A DNA stretch of 39,518 nt from Clostridiaceae bacterium (GTDB lineage Bacteria > Bacillota > Clostridia > DSM-8532), in contig JAAYLX010000043.1 in assembly GCA_012521705.1 (NCBI GenBank), positions 1 through 39,518 on the forward strand, read 5' to 3'. Each line of letters begins with the position of its first letter. Within the stretch, counting starts at the first letter, position 1. The position numbers and the translations under genes were made by a program. The notes under the pieces are model-generated. The model did not search any database and was not told where the DNA came from. It saw only the letters and a program-made list of their open reading frames with translations. Of the stretch, positions 1,154 to 20,778 are shown in pieces.

Positions 1154-3523
1154 TTATTGGTTTTCTTTTGCTTTCGTGGTTTGCAACTGAGGGATCTCGC
1201 TTATTATCATTGAGATCTTTCCATCTTCACAGGTTGTGTGAATGAAGCTTCCTTCATGTATTCTGCCTGTCAGGAACAGCTCGGAAAGTTCATCCTCAAT
1301 ATGGCGCTGGATTGCTTTTCTAAGTGGCCTTGCTCCGAATTTTGTATCAAATCCCTTTTCGAGCAGGAATTCTTTTGCCTTGTCGTCAAAACTAATGGTC
1401 ATGCCTTTTTCACGCGTATCGCGGATAATATCTCCAAGCATGATATCAAGTATCTGCCTGAGTTGTTCACGTGTAAGTTCTTCAAACACAATTATTTCAT
1501 CCACACGGTTCAAAAATTCTGGACGGAAGATTTCCCTGACTGCGTTATTAACTTTCTTCTCCAGGGCTTCATAACCTTCCTTGTTGAATCCGATGCCATT
1601 TGTCCTGAACCCGGTTCCGGCATTTGAGGTCATAATAAGGATTGTATTTTCAAAGTTTACTGTCCTCCCATGGCTGTCGGTAAGCCTTCCGTCTTCCATA
1701 ATCTGCAACAGAATATTGAAGACATCCGGATGGGCTTTCTCTATTTCATCCATAAGAATAACCGAATAGGGTTTCCTTCTGACCTTTTCTGTAAGCTGTC
1801 CGCCCTGGTCAAATCCGACATATCCCGGAGGTGCGCCAATTATTTTGGACACTGTATGTTTTTCCATATATTCCGACATATCAAGCCTGATCATCGCATC
1901 ATCGCTGCCGAAAAGTTCAGCGGCAAGAGTCTTGGCAAGCTCTGTCTTACCAACTCCGGTGGGGCCGACAAAGATAAAGCTTGAAGGCCTTTTCTTCCTT
2001 CTGAAGTCGGAACGTGTCCTTCTGATTGCCCTGGCAAGGCTGGTAACAGCTTTGTCCTGGCCTACCACACGCTGGTGGAGCCTGTCTTCAAGGTGTAAGA
2101 GTTTAGCGGCCTCTGTCTCAGTTATTGTCTGTACAGGTATTCCTGTCCAGTGTTCAATGACATAGGCAATATCGTCCACTGTTACATCCAGAGTGCCTAC
2201 TTCTTCTTCAAGTTTACTTATCTGTTCCATCAAGCGGCATTCTTCAACCTTGTAATCAGCCGCCTTTTCGTAATCATCGTTGAGAGCGGCCTGCTCTTTG
2301 AGTTCCTGGATTCTTTTAAGCTCGTTTCTGAGGCTTTCAAGCTCCGCAGAACCGTGATTTTTGAGGTTTACCCTTGACCCGGCCTCGTCTATGACGTCTA
2401 TGGCCTTGTCGGGCAGGAAACGGTCCTGGATGTAGCGGGACGACAATTTGACCGCCGCCTCAATTACTTCATCCGAAAGCCTTACCTGATGGAAATCCTC
2501 ATAGTATTGTCTTATGCCCTTCAATATATCTATGGTCTCCTCAATTGTAGGCTCGTTCACCATTACAGGCTGGAACCTTCTTTCAAGGGCAGAATCCTTT
2601 TCAATGTGCTTACGGTAGTCTTCAAGGGTTGTGGCTCCGATAACCTGGATATCACCACGTGCCAAAGCCGGTTTCAGGATATTTGCGGCATTCATCGCAC
2701 CGCCTTCTGCCTCTCCGGCGCCAACTATATTGTGAAGCTCGTCTATGACAAGAATAATATTCTTCTGGCTCTTTGCTTCTTCAATAATGGCCTTCATCCT
2801 TGCTTCAAACTGGCCCCTGAACTGGGTCCCGGCAACTATGGCCGCAAGGTCCAAAAGATATATTTCCTTGTCCAAAAGTTTTGCGGGTACTTTCTTTTCC
2901 ACTATTCTGACAGCAAGTCCCTCGGCTATCGCTGTCTTACCCACGCCGGGCTCACCTATAAGAACAGGATTGTTTTTGGTTCTCCTGTTAAGTATCTGGA
3001 TAACCCTTTCTATTTCCTTATCCCTTCCAACAATGCGGTCAATCTCACCATTAAGAGCCTTCTCATTGAGATTGGTGCCGAAATTGTTGAGATTCTTCCT
3101 CGGTGCTTTATTTGGCCTGGGTTCTTCTTTTTTTGTATTGTTCTTATTCCTGTCAGCAGCAGGATTTTTGTCAGGAGCCGGAATAAAGCCTGAGAATGCG
3201 TTGTTGAAGAAACGGAGCATTGAGTTCATGTCTTCCCCGGCCTTTTTTTCCTTGCCGTTTTCAGTATCGGTGTCAGATCCCGAAGGCAGGGCCTGGACCA
3301 GGTCCTCAAAACTCATATCCCCAAACATTTCGGACATCTGATTGTTAAGATTCTCCAGGTCTTCCGGGGTCATTCCGGACTGAAGAATCATCTGTTGGAT
3401 AGGTGCGAGGCCCTGTTTCTGGGCACAGCTCATACAAAGCCCCATTGGTTCAGCTTTACCATCTATAACACGCGTTATGAAAACTACCGCGACATTCTCT
3501 TTGCATATTGAACATTTCATCAT
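1154..3523 (-). CDS. clpE: ClpE-type AAA+ protein unfoldase
   Basis: Class I Hsp100 ATPase of 789 aa that should unfold substrates for ClpP. The N-terminus has a C4 zinc finger (C4, C7, C30, C33), the hallmark of ClpE, in place of the ClpC N-domain repeats. A low-complexity linker follows (residues ~85-150). The first AAA module has Walker A GEPGVGKT at ~190 and Walker B VIDELH at ~259. A UVR-like coiled segment lies at ~405-440. The second AAA module has Walker A GPTGVGKT at ~520 and Walker B ILMDEIEKAHP near 590. An IGF loop at ~644 is the expected ClpP-docking tripeptide. The start ATG at 3523 follows GGAGGAG. Probably monocistronic: a promoter lies upstream and a hairpin downstream. An annotation pipeline might call it ClpC; the zinc finger favours ClpE. 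Confidence 0.9.
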   Translation of the reverse strand: MMKCSICKENVAVVFITRVIDGKAEPMGLCMSCAQKQGLAPIQQMILQSGMTPEDLENLNNQMSEMFGDMSFEDLVQALPSGSDTDTENGKEKKAGEDMNSMLRFFNNAFSGFIPAPDKNPAADRNKNNTKKEEPRPNKAPRKNLNNFGTNLNEKALNGEIDRIVGRDKEIERVIQILNRRTKNNPVLIGEPGVGKTAIAEGLAVRIVEKKVPAKLLDKEIYLLDLAAIVAGTQFRGQFEARMKAIIEEAKSQKNIILVIDELHNIVGAGEAEGGAMNAANILKPALARGDIQVIGATTLEDYRKHIEKDSALERRFQPVMVNEPTIEETIDILKGIRQYYEDFHQVRLSDEVIEAAVKLSSRYIQDRFLPDKAIDVIDEAGSRVNLKNHGSAELESLRNELKRIQELKEQAALNDDYEKAADYKVEECRLMEQISKLEEEVGTLDVTVDDIAYVIEHWTGIPVQTITETEAAKLLHLEDRLHQRVVGQDKAVTSLARAIRRTRSDFRRKKRPSSFIFVGPTGVGKTELAKTLAAELFGSDDAMIRLDMSEYMEKHTVSKIIGAPPGYVGFDQGGQLTEKVRRKPYSVILMDEIEKAHPDVFNILLQIMEDGRLTDSHGRTVNFENTILIMTSNAGTGFRTNGIGFNKEGYEALEKKVNNAVREIFRPEFLNRVDEIIVFEELTREQLRQILDIMLGDIIRDTREKGMTISFDDKAKEFLLEKGFDTKFGARPLRKAIQRHIEDELSELFLTGRIHEGSFIHTTCEDGKISMIISEIPQLQTTKAKENQ

Positions 3524-3646: not shown

Positions 3647-4087
3647 TTATAGTTTTTTTGTCACGGTTATGATATTGCCCGAAGAATCAAATTTCATACA
3701 GTCACAAAGGTTCTGTATAATGCATAATCCTCTTCCGGACTCGTCCATTGACATGGGATCACATTCGTTCTCTCTTGATTTTAAAATCATTGTATTAAGG
3801 GCATCAAATCCGTATCCCTGATCCTTGACGCTGATGCCAAGCACATTATCCTTCAGCCATACTTTAACATCTATTTTTTTATTGTTGTCACAATCGTTTC
3901 CGTGTTTTATTGCATTTTGCAATAGTTCGCTTAAAATTACCTTAATATCAAAATACTGCTCTTTATTCAGGGTAGAAAACATCTGAAGCATCTTAAGGAT
4001 TTTGCCGATTTCGTGGCAAGCCTTGTTTGCATCACTTTCAATTGCTCCGCTATAGACTTCCCTTCCCCTGCTTTTAATTGATTCCAT
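3647..4087 (-). CDS. RsbW/SpoIIAB-type anti-sigma serine kinase (intact)
   Basis: A 146-aa GHKL-fold protein of the anti-sigma kinase family, which sequesters a sigma factor and phosphorylates a STAS antagonist. The ATP-binding boxes are intact: N box SELLQNAIKHGN (E54, N58), G1 box DQGYGFD (~89) and G2 box ESGRGLCII (~116). The start is ATG 4087, 8 nt after GGAGGGTG; a TTG six codons upstream overlaps that ribosome site and is rejected. It lies downstream of the sigma gene with a gap of about 70 bp holding a possible sigma-B-type promoter. In the module it is the only kinase-like protein with its nucleotide motifs preserved, so it probably supplies the kinase activity that the homologue at 4923-5309 has lost. 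The partner assignments are inference. Confidence 0.85.
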   Translation of the reverse strand: MESIKSRGREVYSGAIESDANKACHEIGKILKMLQMFSTLNKEQYFDIKVILSELLQNAIKHGNDCDNNKKIDVKVWLKDNVLGISVKDQGYGFDALNTMILKSRENECDPMSMDESGRGLCIIQNLCDCMKFDSSGNIITVTKKL

Positions 4088-4144: not shown

Positions 4145-4169
4145 ATATATACCCTCTAATCACTTTTTT
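4145..4169 (-). promoter_or_regulatory. Possible sigma-B-like promoter before the intact kinase gene
   Basis: Within the last codons of the sigma gene and just past its stop, the minus strand carries TATTAA, 13 nt, then GGGTAT. The Bacillus sigma-B consensus is GTTTAA-N12-15-GGGTAT. The -10 is perfect, the -35 matches 4 of 6 bases and the spacing fits, but a match of this size can arise by chance. Confidence 0.35.
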
Positions 4170-4921
4170 AATAGCAATCTGAATTTTTCTATAGTCTTTT
4201 TCTCAAGCCTTGATATGTACATCTGTGAAACGTTGAACCTTTTTGCTATCTCTTTCTGGGTCATGTTTTCAAAAAACCTCAGCTTGATAAATTCTTTCTC
4301 AGATTCATTAAAGTTTTCCATGGCCTTCATCAGAAAATCTCTGTTGTTGATTTTTTCGAAGGTGTCATCATCTTCTCCGATGGTTTCATGAAGTTCCAGA
4401 TTATCCTCATCGAATACCGACTGATCAAAGGACTGAATATTATATACGTTCCAGGACTCTATTATTTCCAGGACATTTTCAGCTTTCATATTCAGGTAAT
4501 CCGCAATTTCATCTATGCGGGGAGCGCGTTTGTTCTGCTGAATCAGAAATTCCCTCGCCTGGTTCACCTTTTGATAAACTTCATATATCCGCCTGGGAAT
4601 GCGTATTACCGAGGCCTTGTCCCTGAAGTAGCGCTTTATTTCCCCGATTATTGTGGGAGTGGCAAAACTGACAAATTTAACCCTTTCAAAAACATTGAAA
4701 CGCTCAACTGCATTAATAAGCGCGATACATGCTACCTGGTAAATATCTTCATAGTCTACGCCGCGGTTTACAAACTTTTTAGAAAGAATCTCAGGTAAAT
4801 GCATGTACCTTCGCACTATCTCGTTTCGTATATTTATATCACGGGTCTGGCAATATTCATAAAAAAGCTCTTTTTCGGTTTTATCTCTGTATTTCAAAGC
4901 TTCAGGTAATAACTTTCTCAT
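4160..4921 (-). CDS. RNA polymerase sigma factor, sigma-B/F/G family
   Basis: A 253-aa sigma-70 family protein. Region 2 is clear (DYEDIYQVACIALINAVERF, then FVSFATPTIIGEIKRYFRD), followed by the IRIPRRIYE region-3 start. A region-4 helix-turn-helix near the C-terminus reads MTQKEIAKRFNVSQMYISRLE. Size, lack of region 1.1 and company with STAS and RsbW-like genes place it with stress or sporulation sigmas controlled by partner switching. ATG 4921 is chosen; an upstream in-frame TTG would sit inside the previous gene with no suitable ribosome site. It begins one base after the stop of the preceding RsbW-like gene. I cannot tell sigma-B from a sigma-F paralogue; I lean to sigma-B because spoIIAA-spoIIAB-sigF order is not reproduced here. 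Confidence 0.88.
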   Translation of the reverse strand: MRKLLPEALKYRDKTEKELFYEYCQTRDINIRNEIVRRYMHLPEILSKKFVNRGVDYEDIYQVACIALINAVERFNVFERVKFVSFATPTIIGEIKRYFRDKASVIRIPRRIYEVYQKVNQAREFLIQQNKRAPRIDEIADYLNMKAENVLEIIESWNVYNIQSFDQSVFDEDNLELHETIGEDDDTFEKINNRDFLMKAMENFNESEKEFIKLRFFENMTQKEIAKRFNVSQMYISRLEKKTIEKFRLLLKK

Positions 4922-4922
4922 C

Positions 4923-5309
4923 TCAAACTGCCTTTCCAAGCTTCTTTACCATAGTCAAAATGTTTTGGCCATTTTTCTGCATATCAATTTCATCCATCAG
5001 TGAGTTCACAATAGCCAGTGAAAGGCTATCTTCATCACCGTCAAAAATATCTGAGACAGTATTATCTGAAAGTAAGAATTTTATAGTAAGGCCATCGCTG
5101 ATATTTTCAAACAAAATAGCAATTTCTTCAGCTTCGGGCTGTTTTTCAATAATCTTCCCCAGGACCTCAGAAATAGAAACTTTTATATCTTCAATCGCAT
5201 CAAAATCAAAGCCAATTTTACTGGCTATTCCTGAAGCAGTCAGTCTGGCAGTGCTTACGTATTCAGCCTTTACAGGAATCTTGAGTGTAACGGTTTCCGG
5301 CAGTTTCAT
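4923..5309 (-). CDS. RsbW-like anti-sigma homologue with eroded ATP-binding motifs
   Basis: This 128-aa protein follows RsbW closely over its first half (EYVSTARLTASGIASKIGF, then AIEDIKVSISE) and again at SLMDEI near residue 103. All three nucleotide-binding boxes are altered. The N-box glutamate remains (E48), but the invariant Asn is replaced by Lys (~52). The G1 DxGxG loop is replaced by SDNTVSD (~81-87). The G2 glycines are replaced (DEDSLSL, ~93-98). ATP binding and kinase activity are therefore unlikely. It lies between the STAS gene (ATGA overlap at 5306-5309) and the sigma gene (1-nt gap), the usual rsbW place. It may bind sigma or the STAS protein without phosphorylating it. Fold assignment is firm; loss of kinase activity is inferred from missing residues. 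Confidence 0.85.
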   Translation of the reverse strand: MKLPETVTLKIPVKAEYVSTARLTASGIASKIGFDFDAIEDIKVSISEVLGKIIEKQPEAEEIAILFENISDGLTIKFLLSDNTVSDIFDGDEDSLSLAIVNSLMDEIDMQKNGQNILTMVKKLGKAV

Positions 5310-5626
5310 GATTGACTCTCCTCCATAACAAACACCTTGTCCAGACCTGTAATTCTGAATAGTTTTTTCACTGTACTTCCGGCATTTTTAATAACGATAT
5401 CATGACCATGCCCCTTAATCCTTTTAAGAGCACCAACAAGTATCCCAAGGCCCATGCTGTCTATGTACTCAAGATTTGTAAAATCAAGAACAACATCTGC
5501 CGGTACATCTCCAATGGCCGAATAGAGTTTCTCTTTAAAGTCCGGAGCCGAGCAAATATCTATCTCGCCTGAAACCACTATCGTATAGTTTCCGTTCCCG
5601 TTATTAATAACTGATAATTCATACAT
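5306..5626 (-). CDS. STAS-domain anti-sigma factor antagonist (RsbV/SpoIIAA type)
   Basis: A 106-aa single STAS domain. It has the N-terminal strand-turn GEIDICSAPDF (~20-30) and the phosphoacceptor loop EYIDSMGLGIL with the candidate serine at residue 57 (DSxG). In this family the unphosphorylated antagonist captures the anti-sigma factor and frees sigma; phosphorylation of this serine reverses it. ATG 5626 follows a strong GGGAGGGG site; the ATG six codons upstream overlaps that site. The stop overlaps the next start by 4 nt (ATGA), showing tight translational coupling with the RsbW-like gene. Confidence 0.9.
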   Translation of the reverse strand: MYELSVINNGNGNYTIVVSGEIDICSAPDFKEKLYSAIGDVPADVVLDFTNLEYIDSMGLGILVGALKRIKGHGHDIVIKNAGSTVKKLFRITGLDKVFVMEESQS

Positions 5627-5643: not shown

Positions 5644-6510
5644 TTATTTTACCATTAATTTAACAAATTCAACAGCTTTCTCTGTTTCCTTGCCTGAACG
5701 TGCAAAAGATGCAATTATTCTGTCGCCTGAAAGCCCTGCTTCTTTAAGGATTTCGCTGTCGGTCACGTCAAGGCCGTATAATGCAGGTATTAAGCTTGAG
5801 CCATCGTTTAACTTCACTTCCACTATAAGGTCCTCATAATCTTCTTTATGTACACCCAGCCTTTCAAGGCTTCCCAACAGCTCCTCAACCGGTATAAAGG
5901 CCCCCTGCACGGCAAGGCTTCTGTAACATTCTTCGTCCATAATAAAAATATCGTTGTCCCCCGCCGTAACCTCGGTCACGAATTTTACCTGCATTGCGGC
6001 CTGAAGCTGCGGGTCTTTTGCTCCCATGTAAACATTCTGGACCAGAGCTTCAGAAACACCATCCATCTCATTTTCAATACGTTCTTCAAGTAGTTCTGTA
6101 TCAGGGAGGAGCAGATTTCCTGTTACAATTACTTTCAGATCGGGTTCCACTCGTGTTGTCAGAGATACTATGGTGTATATGACTGCCACAATTACAATCA
6201 GGGCTATTGCAACATGCCATTTATAGTAATAGAAGAAATTCCCGGCTTTCTCCTCATCAATTTTAAGAAGTCTGAACAGGGGGTTGGGATGCTGCTTTCT
6301 TAATTGTTTCTTTTTTTCTTCTTCAGGATCATACACGGATATTCCGCTTGCAATTTTATAGGCCTTGTCAATATCTTCAAGGGTATACCCCTTCTCGTCC
6401 TTTTCTGTCTGCCTGTATTTTTTTAAGAGAACATTCATCCTTCTGTTTATCTCTTCGGGTGTGGCACCCTCTTCCAACCCCAAAATTTCCAAGGCAGTTT
6501 TTCTGTCCAT
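5644..6510 (-). CDS. Membrane protein: J-like N-terminus, one TM helix, solute-binding-like outer domain
   Basis: A 288-aa protein of three parts. Residues 1-60 resemble the first helices of a J domain (TALEILGLEEGATPEEINRRMNVLLKKYR), but the HPD motif is absent. A charged linker follows, then one transmembrane helix at ~99-118. The C-terminal ~170 residues would be extracytoplasmic and contain motifs reminiscent of type-1 substrate-binding lobes (DIFIMDEECYRSLAVQGAFIPVEEL near 190). There is no ABC transporter nearby to serve. It ends about 18 nt before the STAS gene, with no terminator seen between, so it is likely co-transcribed with the sigma module and could be its sensor; that role is inference. 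ATG 6510 follows GGGGGTGG. I recognise the architecture loosely, not a named family. Confidence 0.65.
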   Translation of the reverse strand: MDRKTALEILGLEEGATPEEINRRMNVLLKKYRQTEKDEKGYTLEDIDKAYKIASGISVYDPEEEKKKQLRKQHPNPLFRLLKIDEEKAGNFFYYYKWHVAIALIVIVAVIYTIVSLTTRVEPDLKVIVTGNLLLPDTELLEERIENEMDGVSEALVQNVYMGAKDPQLQAAMQVKFVTEVTAGDNDIFIMDEECYRSLAVQGAFIPVEELLGSLERLGVHKEDYEDLIVEVKLNDGSSLIPALYGLDVTDSEILKEAGLSGDRIIASFARSGKETEKAVEFVKLMVK

Positions 6511-18444: not shown

Positions 18445-20778
18445 TCTGGTGGTAAGGACTGTCATGTCATCATGATTTCCTTCCGAGCGGGCTACTGCCT
18501 CCTGCAAAATCAAATCAGCCAGGTGTTGCGCATTTACGGTATCGGTATTCTGGATGAATCTCTGCAAAGGAGTAATTTCGCCATCTTCTGAAAAGGCCTC
18601 AATTATGCCGTCGGAGACCATGATGACCATGTCTCCTTTTTTCATGGAAGTACAGCTGTAATGCGGCGTATTTTCTTCATCCATGCGTTTTCCGTGGCTG
18701 AAGACCGATACTCCTTCCTGACCGGTGACAAATGACGGTGCGGCGTCATACTTGTAGAAAGATACATCACCAGTATATAAATCAATAGCGCATATATCCA
18801 TGGTGGCAAGTCTTTCATTTTCGCCCCTGAGATCCAGGTAGAGGTTCAGAAGCCTTATTGCCTGCCCCAGTTCAATTCCGTCTGAAACAAGGTTCTCCAG
18901 CATTTGTATTGCCGTTCTGCTGTATTTTTCAGCAAGGCTGCCCGACCCCGCTCCATCACTTATGGCACTGATATGATAACCTTCCCTTGAGATAAAGAAT
19001 GTATAAGTATCACCTGAAATCTCCTTTCCGGTTCTGCTTACCCTTGCTATTCCGGTCACTGTTTTATAACGGGGCTGTTTCATGTACCTGATTACAGAAT
19101 ACCCCATCATATCCCTTCTGTTTTCCCCTGCGCGCACAAACCTGCTGCTTAATATGCTCTCAACTATTTCATCAATTTCAGAGGGATTTACTTTATGCCT
19201 TGATTCAAGCACCACGTCAAGATATGGTCTGGTATCCTGTTTTTTGTTGTACCTCACAGTGGTCACAGGTATCTTGCTTGATGCAGCCATACCAAGAACG
19301 GCGTCTTCAATTTCACGGTCGCGCACCGACATATCAAGCATTGAGCGTGCGGCAGCCAGAATATTTCCCGAAATCAGAGCCACCTGCCTGGCAAGAAGCA
19401 TACGGCTTTCGCTTATTTTCTCCTTCCAGATGCTTTCGGTTTTATACAGTGAATAGGCTGTGCCAAGATTTTCAAAGAATTTATTGTATTTGGGACAGGA
19501 CTTTTTGAACCATGCCGGAACTTCAAATTGTCCGTATTCATCAGTCTTAAGGCCCGATATCGCGTTTTCCACCAGCTTGTATGTCTTTACAAAGTTCATT
19601 TTCCAGCACCTTACCGAAAAACTGCACTGGGAACATACTCTTTCTGCGGTCATCTCGGCTATCCATTCTGTGCCCGATTTTGCTTCTTCCTCCTCCAAAA
19701 CGGTTTCTTCAATATTCCTTGAAACCCGTGATAATGCCCTGCTCAGAAGCAACAATTTGTCCGCTGCTTCATGTATCTGACCGTACTCGTTGGAGCCCTG
19801 TGGCCGGGGATTGTATTTTATTCCTGTCAGCTTATTTCCAAGATAATTAATTATGGGGGAGGGCATTACCAGGAACAGGACCCCGGCTGCAAGGGACTCA
19901 TAATATATGACAGTAAGATTGTTGGACAAAGATGACAACCCTGAAAAGAAGATCGTAACAATAAGCCACATTGTCGCGTTCAGGGTTTTTGACTTGTCGG
20001 AAATTCCGGATGCAGCTCCTGCCAGGGCAAGCATTCCTGGAATTTGCAAAGAAGACGGAATATCATAGAAGGCTATGACTATGCCTATGAGCGCGCCTGC
20101 CAGTGCTCCTCTGGCACTTCCCTTGTGTCTTGCAATTAAAATCACAGCTATTCCTGCCAGAATAAAACCTGTTTCGAGGTTCAATATTTTTATTCCTTTA
20201 AGACTAATAATAAGACAGCTTAAAAGGACAGATTTGGAGAAAAACACTTTTTCAGGGGCTGATGCTTTATTCTGAGTATTTCTGAAGGATTCCATGGCAG
20301 GGGCCAAAATGGCTGCAAGAGAAAAAACAAGAGCTGCGCATAAAACAGAGACAACAAAATCATATAGATGTATCCCCTGTGCCATTCCCCTGATAATACC
20401 GGTAAAAAACACCACAACTGACATTAATACTGCCCGGCTGTAATCTGTTTCGTTCTTGTTTCCAAGCCTGAAAATAAGATGAGAGAAGGCTTCAAACAAC
20501 AATAAGGCAAGGGTTTGTCTGGCAGTTTCAAAGTAATTTGAAAACAGGGCATTGCCCAGGGTTATGGTAATAATTGCAGCAACTTTGGACATCCGGGTAA
20601 ACCTTGCAGAAACATAGAGTGCTGTGGCAAAAGGTTTAATGACGCCAAAGAAATTGGCTCTTGAAAAGATGAAACATATTATAAACGAAACCACCTGGTT
20701 AAAAGATATCTCGGACACATATCCAAGGAGTTGTTTGAAGATCTTTTTCCCATCCTTAAGTACAGTAATATTTTCCAT
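18436..20778 (-). CDS. spoIIE: Stage II sporulation protein E, PP2C-type phosphatase
   Basis: A 780-aa SpoIIE: N-terminal membrane region with about ten hydrophobic helices (to ~330), a central oligomerisation/FtsZ-interaction region including a Cys-containing CSQCSFSVRCW patch (~385), and a C-terminal PP2C phosphatase (~575-780). Metal-site aspartates are in ISDGAGSG (D608), VSDGI (D723) and HDDMT (~770). SpoIIE dephosphorylates SpoIIAA at the polar septum and releases sigma-F in the forespore. ATG 20778 follows GGAGG. No gene shares its orientation directly upstream (a terminator ends the spoVK-like operon at ~21003), so it has its own promoter. It could conceivably also act on the STAS protein at 5306-5626, but nothing here shows that. 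Confidence 0.97.
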   Translation of the reverse strand: MENITVLKDGKKIFKQLLGYVSEISFNQVVSFIICFIFSRANFFGVIKPFATALYVSARFTRMSKVAAIITITLGNALFSNYFETARQTLALLLFEAFSHLIFRLGNKNETDYSRAVLMSVVVFFTGIIRGMAQGIHLYDFVVSVLCAALVFSLAAILAPAMESFRNTQNKASAPEKVFFSKSVLLSCLIISLKGIKILNLETGFILAGIAVILIARHKGSARGALAGALIGIVIAFYDIPSSLQIPGMLALAGAASGISDKSKTLNATMWLIVTIFFSGLSSLSNNLTVIYYESLAAGVLFLVMPSPIINYLGNKLTGIKYNPRPQGSNEYGQIHEAADKLLLLSRALSRVSRNIEETVLEEEEAKSGTEWIAEMTAERVCSQCSFSVRCWKMNFVKTYKLVENAISGLKTDEYGQFEVPAWFKKSCPKYNKFFENLGTAYSLYKTESIWKEKISESRMLLARQVALISGNILAAARSMLDMSVRDREIEDAVLGMAASSKIPVTTVRYNKKQDTRPYLDVVLESRHKVNPSEIDEIVESILSSRFVRAGENRRDMMGYSVIRYMKQPRYKTVTGIARVSRTGKEISGDTYTFFISREGYHISAISDGAGSGSLAEKYSRTAIQMLENLVSDGIELGQAIRLLNLYLDLRGENERLATMDICAIDLYTGDVSFYKYDAAPSFVTGQEGVSVFSHGKRMDEENTPHYSCTSMKKGDMVIMVSDGIIEAFSEDGEITPLQRFIQNTDTVNAQHLADLILQEAVARSEGNHDDMTVLTTRLW

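Follow-up and report, generated by a model that had tools for sequence, protein, structure and literature searches.

What does an RsbW-type protein contribute to a sigma-factor operon once its ATP site is gone? RsbW and SpoIIAB are the textbook bifunctional anti-sigma kinases. In the window considered here (the whole 39,518-nt stretch of DNA that was analyzed, from a Clostridiaceae bacterium), a preliminary description had reported an RsbW homologue without ATP-binding boxes and had read it as a pseudokinase that binds the sigma factor or the STAS-domain protein without phosphorylating it, with a second, intact kinase supplying the activity. Read along the minus strand, the genes concerned are lysS, the gene for a membrane protein with weak DnaJ similarity, and then STAS, the degenerate RsbW (PSK), sigma, the intact GHKL kinase (KIN), and clpC. 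The STAS-domain anti-anti-sigma factor (5306–5626) is of the RsbV/SpoIIAA type (Pfam STAS, E 3.5e-20), with its predicted phospho-acceptor Ser in the motif YIDSMGLG; its reading frame is open from 5644 too, and the start at 5626 agrees with those of relatives. PSK (4923–5309) is a 128-aa protein and a predicted kinase-dead anti-sigma factor, followed by a sigma factor of the SigB/SigF/SigG family (4160–4921; NCBIfam TIGR02980, 234.8 bits against a cut-off of 234.35) and by KIN (3647–4087; HATPase_c_2, E 5.3e-18), a predicted STAS kinase. STAS and PSK share an overlapping stop and start (ATGA), and only 1 nt separates the PSK stop from the ATG of sigma, so that the three genes look translationally coupled. 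Downstream of KIN, the clpC-type ATPase gene (1154–3523, minus strand) is a conserved neighbor outside the switch. Just upstream of STAS, the weakly DnaJ-like protein (5644–6510, minus strand), which has a predicted membrane segment and a sub-threshold Pfam DnaJ match (E 0.11), reaches the cut-off of none of the Pfam or NCBIfam models; it is co-conserved in most family members.

The similarity of PSK to RsbW claimed in the preliminary description was borne out: the open reading frame and the quoted motifs are present, Pfam HATPase_c_2 matches above its cut-off (E 5e-8), and RsbW in the PDB (6m36) matches at E 3.5e-13. An AlphaFold2 model built with 71 relatives (pLDDT 88.2) has the RsbW-type GHKL fold and is matched by B. 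subtilis RsbW (6m37; Z 17.8, rmsd 1.8 over 112), by UsfX in complex with RsfB (8ih8; Z 16.7), by SpoIIAB with SigmaF (Z 15.8), and by UsfX with SigF (8jzt; Z 15.1). Chance resemblance of motifs is ruled out by these Pfam, PDB, and fold matches. On the NCBIfam RsbW equivalog models, PSK scores 75.5 and 69.6 bits, well under the respective cut-offs of 145 and 155. Aligned with B. subtilis RsbW (RsbW and RsbV of this species served as references, and the RsbW stretch matches the PDB alignment of 6m36), PSK has Lys in place of the N-box Asn (N53), Leu in place of the G1 Asp, a deletion of the G1 Gly, and DSLS in place of the G2 GGLG. PSK lacks the DxGxG loop, the G2 glycines, and the ATP lid, and in the model the lid region is predicted to be short and devoid of a helix. 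The catalytic Glu preceding the N-box Asn is retained (RsbW E49, PSK E48), as are the STAS-docking residues R23, D42, K44, and E49 of RsbW as a set. The earlier claim that every ATP-binding box had been lost therefore stands for N53, G1, and G2 but not literally for all box residues, since the catalytic Glu is kept in PSK and in all 85 of its degenerate homologues.

Those homologues were obtained by sorting RsbW proteins by the state of their boxes into 34 intact and 85 degenerate ones. Every protein of either group (85/85 degenerate, and all 34 intact) has R23, D42, and E49, and K44 is present in 84/85 degenerate proteins, being replaced by Arg once in each group. The named loci were gathered with a DNA pattern that covers D42, so the invariance of D42 is partly selected; R23, K44, and E49 lie outside the pattern, and the whole-genome matches (a 61-genome set and a class-wide sample) are free of pattern selection. 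All 34 intact proteins have N53, the G1 Asp/Gly, and the G2 Gly; these residues are mostly lost in the 85 degenerate ones, of which just 8 still have Asn at position 53, and the ATP-site residues are replaced or deleted differently from lineage to lineage. In the RsbV-RsbW crystal structure, RsbW binds RsbV through R23, D42, K44/S48, E49, and Y118, with E49 contacting the RsbV serine that gets phosphorylated (PMC7340262), suggesting that the Glu may be retained for docking. On the partner side, 69/69 STAS relatives at degenerate loci share the acceptor Ser together with the neighboring Tyr and Asp contact residues. As far as alignment can tell, what has been lost in the degenerate group is the ATP site, and what has been kept is the surface predicted to dock partners.

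The intact kinase that the preliminary description had noticed downstream of sigma was confirmed by its motifs ELLQNAIKHG, DQGYGF, and SGRGL. Its AlphaFold2 model (pLDDT 89.3) is a complete RsbW/SpoIIAB-type domain with a lid, with SpoIIAB (1l0o, 1th8) among the best structure matches. Among 77 relatives of KIN, E49, the G1 Asp/Gly, and the G2 Gly are present in 77/77 and N53 in 76/77, and the column of R23 is variable (K/R/N/D/E/S/G), the mirror image of the pattern in PSK. KIN is predicted to be the kinase of its partner STAS protein, with which the conservation of the acceptor Ser (69/69) is consistent, though not proof.

KIN lies directly downstream at 60 of the 85 degenerate loci, and in a further fetched set it is adjacent at 20/20 loci (16 of them new). 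For another 15 of the 85, it is found elsewhere in the genome, where it adjoins engB and/or typA wherever the context was read, the fullest cases having the order lon-engB-KIN-typA. Five of the 85 were left unscored because of contig ends or sequence that reads N; in the genome of one of these (L069), KIN turns up on a different contig. An N stretch that follows or interrupts sigma kept KIN from being scored in L046, L097, L213, and L214. In the remaining five of the 85 (L144 and L209–L212), degeneration is only partial and the STAS gene is gone as well. An adjacent KIN was found at 0/34 intact RsbW loci; KIN-like matches of at least 60 bits lie elsewhere in three genomes whose RsbW is intact, namely, at lon-engB in Anaeromonas, beside a PAS-PP2C protein in Tepidibacter, and beside STAS and CheA-like genes in genome G284. 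In the class-wide sample, approximately 18 taxonomic families have a degenerate RsbW with KIN and 9 have an intact RsbW without adjacent KIN, the association being counted on related genomes. Wherever STAS is present and the locus is readable, a degenerate RsbW is accompanied by a separate intact kinase, either adjacent or unlinked. The same degenerate protein, which it had been suggested to look for beside sigma in related genomes, thus recurs across Clostridia in the order STAS-degenerate RsbW-sigma-intact GHKL kinase.

Several loci depart from this order. STAS-degenerate RsbW-KIN operons without a sigma gene occur at L117, L122, L123, and L136 (and at L149–L152), and in the three of the first four that were read far enough, the next gene encodes a response regulator with a PP2C phosphatase (SpoIIE domain). 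The sharing of one operon by kinase, STAS protein, phosphatase, and degenerate binder supports the view that KIN serves a STAS phosphorylation cycle. At the partly degenerate loci L209–L212 and L144, RsbW stands right before sigma with neither STAS nor KIN, and gyrA adjoins in those read far enough; these may be sigma/anti-sigma pairs wholly stripped of phosphoregulation. KIN-like GHKL domains are also paired or fused with STAS domains at L164, L226, and L228, a different branch of STAS-kinase pairs, two of which have response-regulator or CheA-like genes nearby.

A sigma-B-like promoter is predicted 5′ of KIN in the window (4149–4173, minus strand), consisting of TATTAA (4173–4168), a 13-nt spacer, and GGGTAT (4154–4149), the last just past the sigma stop. 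The −35 half of this copy is weak, whereas its relatives are strongly enriched in the bipartite form. GGGTAW at −10 occurs in 53/71 sigma-KIN junctions (shuffled mean, 11), and GTTTA-N12–16-GGGTAW, a sigma-B promoter form, occurs in 18/71 (shuffled mean, 0.07; opposite strand, 0). Within 150 nt upstream of unlinked KIN genes, GNTTA-N12–16-GGGTAW, with a relaxed −35 picked after the sequences had been inspected, is found at 12/13 (shuffled, 0.055), and at engB and the gene after the unlinked KIN it is found at none. Intact loci have no bipartite site after sigma, and an autoregulatory sigma-B site upstream of STAS is not enriched (1–2 of 129 loci). Across seven genomes, the strict motif shows no genome-wide excess over a reversed-pattern control; hence, no wider regulon is claimed.

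The reading preferred here, considered likely on comparative grounds, is that partner switching has been split between a kinase-dead anti-sigma factor and a dedicated STAS kinase that the released sigma factor causes to be made, as a negative feedback. PSK, translationally coupled with its sigma factor, would dock on it and hold it inactive with no need for nucleotide. Unphosphorylated STAS protein would compete for the same surface of PSK and so free sigma, and phosphorylation of the STAS serine by KIN would stop STAS binding and restore inhibition, with a PP2C phosphatase dephosphorylating STAS on a signal. Because KIN has a predicted sigma-B-type promoter in front of it, freed sigma would raise KIN, whereupon STAS would be rephosphorylated and sigma turned off again; if the promoter is read by the same sigma factor, this delayed negative feedback would work through the kinase and not through the anti-sigma factor. 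A candidate for the STAS phosphatase is a MASE3-membrane PP2C protein encoded in the same genome (G000:C32:48133-48729; L065:4119-5792). Another candidate, a SpoIIE-type phosphatase in the window (18445–18969, minus strand), probably serves SigF. This genome also encodes same-family sporulation sigma factors and SpoIIAB, and the latter might phosphorylate the STAS protein too.

That PSK could instead be a functionless, decaying duplicate is suggested by the loss of its ATP boxes, and the preliminary description had named simple decay among the findings that would undo its interpretation. Pairwise dN/dS among near relatives is 0.05–0.22 for PSK, comparable to 0.05–0.23 for KIN and with slightly lower values for STAS and sigma, and the docking residues are invariant. 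PSK matches occur in 41 of the 61 genomes, with an open frame in nearly all; the frame is open in all close family loci, which share an identical gene order, and dozens of genera are represented overall. Decay is excluded by these ratios, open frames, and invariant residues, leaving it a negligible probability. Relatives with intact boxes, also named as a sign of decay, were found, but they belong to other families and have no adjacent kinase. The same degenerate state in dozens of independent genomes rules out a sequencing artefact. PSK might, alternatively, still be a nucleotide-dependent switch that binds ATP or another ligand through unusual residues, with KIN serving some other STAS target. 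Pseudokinases can retain nucleotide binding, and the catalytic Glu is invariant; however, in the RsbV-RsbW structure that Glu touches the serine of the STAS protein, and docking could therefore account for its retention (PMC7340262), and the adenine Asp, the N-box Asn, the lid, and the G2 loop are all replaced or deleted, differing by lineage. Such a switch is regarded as very unlikely.

A somewhat better but still improbable alternative reverses the two roles, making KIN, a complete GHKL kinase beside sigma, the bifunctional anti-sigma kinase, with PSK titrating STAS or KIN as a decoy or antagonist. An RsbW homologue can indeed be an antagonist, as M. smegmatis RsbW3 antagonizes RsbW1 (PMC7693655). 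It is PSK, however, that occupies the classical rsbW place between STAS and sigma and has R23 in 85/85 homologues, a column that is unconserved in KIN; in lineages where KIN is unlinked, it lies at a distance from sigma and PSK is still next to sigma, and in one family the PSK-sigma pair persists without STAS or KIN. More serious, if on balance doubtful, is the possibility that the split is as proposed and the promoter is either incidental or used by a different sigma factor, in which case there would be no self-feedback and KIN would set a constant level of phosphorylation. The weak −35 in the window, the lack of genome-wide enrichment of strict sites, and the presence of same-family sporulation sigma factors in the genome all fit such a view. 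Yet bipartite sites are far above shuffled expectation at both linked and unlinked KIN genes, with none at neighboring genes, and GTTTA-GGGTAW corresponds to the sigma-B consensus, not to those of sigma-F or sigma-G.

On the sigma tree, the loci with a linked KIN form one well-supported group (support, 97), and those with an unlinked KIN fall apart from it, among intact loci. Forcing all degenerate loci into one group is rejected only at p 0.032. This rejection and the placement of the unlinked-KIN loci make at least two losses likely, although not proven; an independent-pairs test on the sigma tree found few supported pairs, with few independent changes well supported. The Anaeromonas gelatinilytica genome (L139 and L161) has an intact RsbW beside sigma together with an unlinked lon-engB KIN that has a sigma-B-like promoter. 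It is tentatively proposed, at slightly less than even chances, that RsbW kinase activity was lost more than once in Clostridia, once phosphorylation had passed to a stand-alone STAS kinase under the control of that sigma factor, that the split lets active sigma make kinase on demand with the sigma:anti-sigma ratio fixed, and that the Anaeromonas arrangement is a surviving intermediate.

Clostridial genes of the PSK type are likely to be annotated as bifunctional anti-sigma kinases by similarity. If the proposed split is correct, the anti-sigma factor would be unable to phosphorylate in many Clostridia, including the cellulose degraders Ruminiclostridium and Thermoclostridium, and the real STAS kinase would be the as yet unassigned GHKL protein encoded after sigma or near typA. 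The locus would then be a circuit of four small proteins with built-in negative feedback, as well as a natural experiment on the division of a bifunctional regulator, in which a mycobacterial solution is repeated in another phylum.

No description of a binding/kinase split in Clostridia was found in the open-access literature, and the nearest known systems each share part of the arrangement. The B. subtilis RsbV-RsbW-SigB system has the same STAS-RsbW-sigma order, docking residues, sigma family, and form of sigma-B-type promoter. There, in contrast, RsbW itself is the kinase, sigB is followed by the rsbX phosphatase gene with no second GHKL gene, and the whole operon is autoregulated, whereas at the clostridial loci the predicted site stands on the kinase only. 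In Streptomyces coelicolor, BldG, a STAS protein, antagonizes the anti-sigma factor UshX, and several RsbW homologues other than UshX phosphorylate BldG (PMC8346170); UshX-BldG-SigH is a looser case, a many-to-many, genome-wide network with no dedicated kinase in one operon. M. tuberculosis UsfX resembles PSK in fold (Z 16.7 and 15.1) and, by alignment, has likewise lost the G1 loop, the glycines of G2, and the Asn of the N-box. UsfX has been cocrystallized with both its STAS partner RsfB (8ih8) and SigF (8jzt), and partner binding by PSK is predicted; UsfX is, however, actinobacterial and only 17–18% identical, the clostridial proteins being nearer to Bacillus RsbW (30–34%).

A precedent exists in M. 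smegmatis, whose RsbW1 lacks kinase activity but binds SigF; RsbW2, which retains the N, G1, and G2 motifs, phosphorylates RsfB at Ser-63 without binding SigF (PMC7693655). As proposed here, anti-sigma factor and STAS kinase are thus two RsbW-type proteins, and a STAS phospho-serine (here predicted) controls binding. The pseudokinase and separate-kinase reading given in the preliminary description fits the docking residues, the KIN association, and the signs of purifying selection, as judged from the sequences, but the split that it had called unusual has this mycobacterial precedent. Neither the class-wide spread of the split nor the predicted sigma-B-type promoter of the kinase had been noticed in that description. 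M. smegmatis belongs to another phylum and has rsbW1-sigF and rsfB-rsbW2 at separate loci, whereas most clostridial lineages have one four-gene block with a predicted sigma-B-type promoter on the kinase. The clostridial loss looks independent of the mycobacterial one, because the degenerate loci lie near intact clostridial RsbW loci on the sigma tree. With the split itself known from M. smegmatis, what looks new here is how widely it occurs in Clostridia, together with the compact layout of four genes, the apparently repeated loss, and the predicted kinase promoter.
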